Source of the DNA: Chlorobaculum parvum NCIB 8327 | GTDB taxonomy: Bacteria > Bacteroidota > Chlorobiia > Chlorobiales > Chlorobiaceae | Reading direction: 5' to 3' | NCBI RefSeq assembly: GCF_000020505.1 | Contig: NC_011027.1 | Span: 728,001-792,000, forward strand | Length of the DNA: 64,000 bases | Shown: positions 8,975 to 9,060 of the stretch, in pieces | How the letters are laid out: each line of letters begins with the position of its first letter | Position numbering within the stretch: the stretch's first letter is position 1 | The notes under the pieces: generated by a model | Seen by the model: only the letters and a program-made list of their open reading frames with translations | Told to the model about the DNA's origin: nothing | The model's database searches: none | Position numbers and translations under genes: made by a program

Positions 8975-9060
8975 TGTCGTGAAACGACAGACTGGACACG
9001 GGACGCCTTCCGGCAAGCTCTGGGGACGAATCCTGCACAAGAGCTTTTGGCACCGTGTCC
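8975..9060 (-). ncRNA. Structured metK leader, probable SAM-Chlorobi RNA
   Basis: On the minus strand, upstream of metK, GGACACGG (9060-9053) pairs perfectly with CCGTGTCC (9001-8994). Inside it AAGCTCT pairs with AGAGCTT, and just downstream TGTCGT-TTC-ACGACA (8989-8975) forms a hairpin. From memory of the literature, a conserved SAM-Chlorobi RNA motif occurs only in Chlorobi, in 5' leaders of metK/ahcY operons, which matches this position. I could not align to its covariance model. No SAM-I core sequence is present. A possible promoter element, TATCTATG, abuts the 5' end but is uncertain. Confidence 0.65.

Follow-up and report, generated by a model that had tools for sequence, protein, structure and literature searches.

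A probable two-state switch in the SAM-Chlorobi leader RNA of the metK-ahcY operon of Chlorobaculum parvum

Introduction

The SAM-II riboswitch is an H-type pseudoknot. The SAM/SAH riboswitch (RF01727), which lies in a metK context, is described as having the same fold (PMC7367207). The RNA closest to the subject of this work is the SAM-Chlorobi motif (RF01724), which was reported by Weinberg in 2010 to precede all Chlorobi metK and ahcY genes, together with strong promoter sequences (PMC2864571). According to that report, preliminary in-line probing of several constructs revealed no binding of SAM or SAH, and its main text gives metK-ahcY as the sole context and offers no mechanism (PMC2864571). 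Later regulon papers list SAM-Chlorobi as a predicted SAM element (PMC3766115, PMC4239095), and we found no later mechanistic paper on it in the open literature. Since 2010 SAM-Chlorobi has thus had the status of an orphan, located in front of a SAM-making operon yet showing no SAM or SAH binding in vitro.

Two other systems regulate the same pathway. The SAM-I riboswitch (RF00162) resembles SAM-Chlorobi in its methionine-pathway genes, in its presence in the same genomes and in its terminator/antiterminator logic, but differs in structure and in the genes that it precedes (metY-metX and metB-like genes, not metK). The SAH-responsive SahR regulon has ahcY, metH, metF and metK as core targets (PMC4239095), which parallel those of SAM-Chlorobi; SahR, however, is a protein repressor, and the SAH riboswitch of proteobacteria is an unrelated RNA with no match at the C. 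parvum locus. Here we compare the metK leader of C. parvum with about 96 relatives, which yields a concrete two-state model and brings both mechanism and ligand within reach of experiment.

The metK leader of C. parvum is a SAM-Chlorobi RNA

The window, that is the whole stretch of DNA analysed, comprises 64,000 nucleotides of the C. parvum NCIB 8327 genome, and the leader and its genes lie on its minus strand. The original prediction, made from sequence, had proposed a structured metK-ahcY leader of the SAM-Chlorobi type at 8975-9060. A covariance-model search with RF01724 gave a full-length match (model positions 1-87 of 87) at 9079-8992 with 73.5 bits, far above chance (gathering score 35, E 6.3e-12). 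This was the sole Rfam match at the metK leader, where RF01727 gave none, and the single RF01724 copy in the 2.29-Mb genome. The metK gene (methionine adenosyltransferase, 7673..8887; TIGR01034, 559.5 bits, cut-off 309) begins 104 nt 3' of the motif and is followed by ahcY (adenosylhomocysteinase, 6173..7588; TIGR00936, 646 bits, cut-off 498). Both are assigned by equivalog models. The motif lies in the 5' UTR of metK-ahcY, the operon context that had been claimed. With the operon, clade, upstream promoter and full-length match of RF01724, the leader is a true member of an already known family and not a new element.

The three stems of 8, 7 and 6 bp proposed earlier are all present on the minus strand within 9060-8975, and the extent assigned to the leader was incomplete: it missed the 5' stem P1 (9079-9048) with its inner hairpin P1b. 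The 6-bp stem P3 (UGUCGU 8989-8984 with ACGACA 8980-8975) exists but is located 3' of the RF01724 model, outside the family match. In other Chlorobiaceae it has 4-5 bp in a shifting register, with a mean z of about -1, and we rejected it as a covarying third stem and regard it as a weak hairpin.

A -7 promoter element of the Bacteroidetes/Chlorobi type (TAnnTTTG type, TACATTTT, 9094..9101) stands 14 nt before the motif. TACATTT-type elements were found in nearly all Chlorobiaceae copies, mostly 12-17 nt from the motif, and in the other families the element is 6-12 nt from it. With a -7 element at a distance of 6-17 nt from nearly every copy, transcription is expected to begin very close to P1. 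A transcription start downstream of 8990, which would have spoken against the original prediction, is not what this element suggests; the predicted start, around 9083-9088, would lie upstream of the motif. The metK frame runs on without a stop as far upstream as a TTG at 9040, within the motif (8888-9040, minus strand); this extension looks accidental because the conserved metK start is the ATG at 8887.

The family is confined to one order, in line with its restriction to Chlorobi: RF01724 matched 87 of 394 genomes of the phylum, every one inside that order. A covariance model that we built from distant members detected the motif in 88 of the 98 genomes of the order, covering all nine genera. 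An exact-pattern scan of genome contigs returned at least 80 stretches, and the matches listed belong by record title to Chlorobiaceae, Chloroherpetonaceae and Thermochlorobacteraceae. The one outsider among them, in Marinicaulis, was dismissed as a chance pattern match because the tail is missing and neither metK nor metH lies in its neighbourhood. A divergent copy upstream of metK (CCAAUAUGUUUGGACACGG, tail CUGUGUCU; L097 in genome G133) was missed by the RF01724 search and recovered with our model; it retains P1, P1b and the long-range helix S2 described below, plus a terminator-like hairpin. Two related Chlorobium-group genomes (G114 and G338) have cleanly lost the whole motif upstream of metK; the promoter element TACATTTT and the leader that followed the motif are both still present and now adjoin each other. 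The motif is thus dispensable for expression as such, and this natural deletion fits a control element.

The conserved tail pairs with P1/P1b to form an alternative helix

P1 pairs 9079-9073 with 9054-9048, P1b (CCAU/AUGG) pairs 9071-9068 with 9062-9059, and the 7-bp hairpin P2 pairs AAGCUCU (9046-9040) with AGAGCUU (9021-9015). Compensatory changes in relatives, whose absence would have counted against the original prediction, were found in these stems. P1 and P2 covary across 61 Chlorobiaceae leaders. For distant families we used a set of 22 sequences dominated by families outside Chlorobiaceae, where both sides had changed in 5 of the 5 P1 pairs counted. P2 shows changes on both sides in 5 of 8 pairs, and in two genomes a U-A pair of P1b has become A-U by a double change.

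The 8-bp stem of the original prediction corresponds to a long-range helix, S2, in which the conserved 3' tail CCGUGUCC (9001-8994) pairs with GGACACGG (9060-9053) inside P1/P1b. The RF01724 model differs on this point, leaving the tail single-stranded. Unguided RNAalifold analysis of the 61 full Chlorobiaceae leaders returned S2 alone, and 99% of S2 cells are paired in this set and 96% in the 22-sequence set. In one distant copy (L198, G284) a double change has turned an A-U pair of the otherwise invariant S2 core into G-C; distant families also show G-U changes at three S2 positions, and one Chlorobiaceae copy (L074) a G-C to A-U change at one end. In three metH copies (L110, L153 and L159) S2 drops its CC end and extends on the opposite side to 11 Watson-Crick pairs. 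Where S2 varies, pairing is mostly kept, with few exceptions such as L075, L073 and L062. Because its two strands hardly vary, covariation in the S2 core amounts to few events.

S2 and P1b are mutually exclusive because they have the nucleotides GG in common, and S2 also excludes the top of P1. Pseudoknot-free folding (ViennaRNA) of 74 Chlorobiaceae copies predicted P1b with a median probability of 0.98 when the RNA was cut before the tail, and S2 with the same median probability when the tail was included. In the C. parvum leader, S2 has an advantage of 4.7 kcal/mol. Lower P1 and S2 together could form a candidate H-type pseudoknot; such a fold would be shared with the SAM/SAH and SAM-II riboswitches, from which the C. 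parvum locus differs by giving no Rfam match to them and the family by its negative SAM and SAH probing.

Distant relatives usually carry a terminator 3' of the motif

In Chloroherpetonaceae, Thermochlorobacteraceae and a fourth family, an intrinsic terminator usually lies directly after the tail, for example AAGCCUUUUCU-GUCGUA-GGAAAAGGCUUUUUU in L079. A terminator score of at least 18 was reached by 13 of the 20 copies outside Chlorobiaceae versus 2 of 74 within; altogether, a terminator is present in 13-16 of those 20 copies, and four have no convincing one. A terminator in the C. parvum metK leader was considered and rejected, as none was found on the minus strand, and nearly all other Chlorobiaceae are likewise without one.

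The segment J, which joins P2 to the tail (9002..9014 in C. parvum), is a candidate antiterminator strand in the relatives: it is complementary to the 5' arm of the terminator in distant members, with at least 10 pairs in L078. Ensemble folding of transcripts ending in the middle of the terminator gave, for most metK copies, P1b together with J:arm pairing; complete transcripts folded as S2 with the terminator in 12 of 12 tested. Compared with shuffled J, the J:arm pairing has a combined p of 0.003 over sequences that are related to one another, and it is individually significant in few copies. It is absent in L082, L086, L197 and L110, and the mid-terminator state with P1b and J:arm pairing was not seen in 3 of the 4 metH copies tested.

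The rest of the C. parvum leader (8888..8991, minus strand) has no intrinsic terminator and is C-rich and G-poor. Among the 100-nt stretches used for comparison, which came from the window and the loci, its excess of C over G (+15.5%) ranks in the top 3%. A rho gene is present in the genome, and this base composition hints that Rho-dependent termination might possibly act on the leader. Control of translation by hiding the ribosome-binding site is not supported, because most Chlorobiaceae metK starts have no clear Shine-Dalgarno sequence and the motif lies about 100 nt upstream.

A second copy precedes metH

In eight Thermochlorobacteraceae genomes of three genera, a second copy of the motif is located directly before metH, and the identity of MetH was confirmed. 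Neither these copies nor the switch model and the terminator platform of the deep lineages appear in the main text of the 2010 report, where metK-ahcY stands alone (PMC2864571). This second target confines the probable signal to the SAM cycle.

SAM-I riboswitches were detected in 89 of the order's 98 genomes, and in those inspected for gene context they precede metY-metX and metB-like genes. In C. parvum, SAM-I stands before metY-metX outside the window (C1:664814-664922), and second SAM-I copies in relatives precede the metB-like genes. By these positions, SAM-I covers homocysteine synthesis and SAM-Chlorobi the SAM cycle itself. The targets of SAM-Chlorobi resemble those of SAH-responsive SahR regulons (PMC4239095), and the resemblance suggests SAH, homocysteine, methionine or a similar compound as the signal.

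Proposed mechanism and alternative explanations

We consider it probable that the SAM-Chlorobi leader of metK-ahcY is a co-transcriptional two-state switch from P1 to S2. The sequence shows that motif positions 1-66, once transcribed, can fold as P1/P1b and P2, and that the conserved tail, by forming S2, is able to open P1b together with the upper part of P1. The ON state would be P1/P1b with the antiterminator of J and the terminator 5' arm, and the OFF state S2 with the terminator. The choice during transcription would be made by a metabolite of the activated methyl cycle or by a factor reporting such a metabolite, and metK-ahcY, plus metH in Thermochlorobacteraceae, would thereby be matched to the needs of the cycle. 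The terminator is missing in Chlorobiaceae, C. parvum included; there the exchange must rely on a different platform, for which Rho-dependent termination on the C-rich leader is a conceivable candidate.

More tentatively, and we hold this extension to be possible rather than probable, the RNA may be a kinetic switch over the whole SAM cycle. It would be open to its ligand in the short-lived P1/P1b fold, before the tail emerges, and its output, a terminator in the deep lineages, would have been replaced by another platform in Chlorobiaceae. Probing at equilibrium would then overlook the ligand, because the full-length RNA would be caught in S2; if true, this kinetic reading would explain the negative in-line probing of 2010. 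The leaders with a built-in terminator permit a simple test-tube read-out. The statement of the original prediction that ligand and mechanism are unsettled agrees with the 2010 report (PMC2864571).

The alternative that survives best, although we think it unlikely, is a conventional equilibrium riboswitch, in which lower P1, S2 and the loop UCCCCAUUACCUAU make up an H-type pseudoknot that is itself the aptamer for a small molecule other than SAM and SAH (for example methionine, homocysteine or adenosine) and that switches the operon off when it forms. The near invariance of UCCCCAUUACCUAU and the pseudoknot fold described for SAM-II and SAM/SAH riboswitches agree with such an aptamer. SAM sensing is already covered in the same genomes by SAM-I, and the combination of metK, ahcY and metH matches the SAH-responsive SahR regulons (PMC4239095). 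However, S2 is so stable that it is expected to form without ligand, and SAM and SAH themselves were negative in the in-line probing reported (PMC2864571).

A leader bound by a protein, through autoregulation by MetK or AhcY or through another RNA-binding protein acting on the same two folds, is distinctly improbable in our view. The narrow phylogenetic range and the same negative probing would agree with it, but there is no candidate protein, and copies before both metK-ahcY and metH argue for a pathway signal. A DNA operator, with a transcription factor binding the inverted repeat GGACACGG ... CCGTGTCC immediately 3' of the promoter, is hardly credible, since its nearly invariant, symmetric arms beside the promoter are set against an arm spacing that varies with P2 length, the covariation of P1 and P2 as RNA stems and the intrinsic terminators 3' of the motif in relatives. 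The preferred reading is the exchange of P1/P1b for S2 during transcription.

Other features of the locus

A further hairpin between metK and ahcY (7625..7659, minus strand; arms GAAAGCCUC/GAGGCUUUC) had been suggested as a possible second RNA element tuning the operon. The fold is real and strong (-23.6 kcal/mol, z -3.4), but a role as a conserved second regulator was rejected, as neither its sequence nor its presence is well conserved. The sequence is specific to Chlorobaculum and unique in the genome; some Chlorobium genomes have hairpins of unrelated sequence at this gap, and in most Chlorobium the gap is about 30 nt, unstructured and has no hairpin. We treat it as an element separate from SAM-Chlorobi. 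The window also contains two clusters of tRNA genes, four at 18863-19268 and three at 59807-60163.
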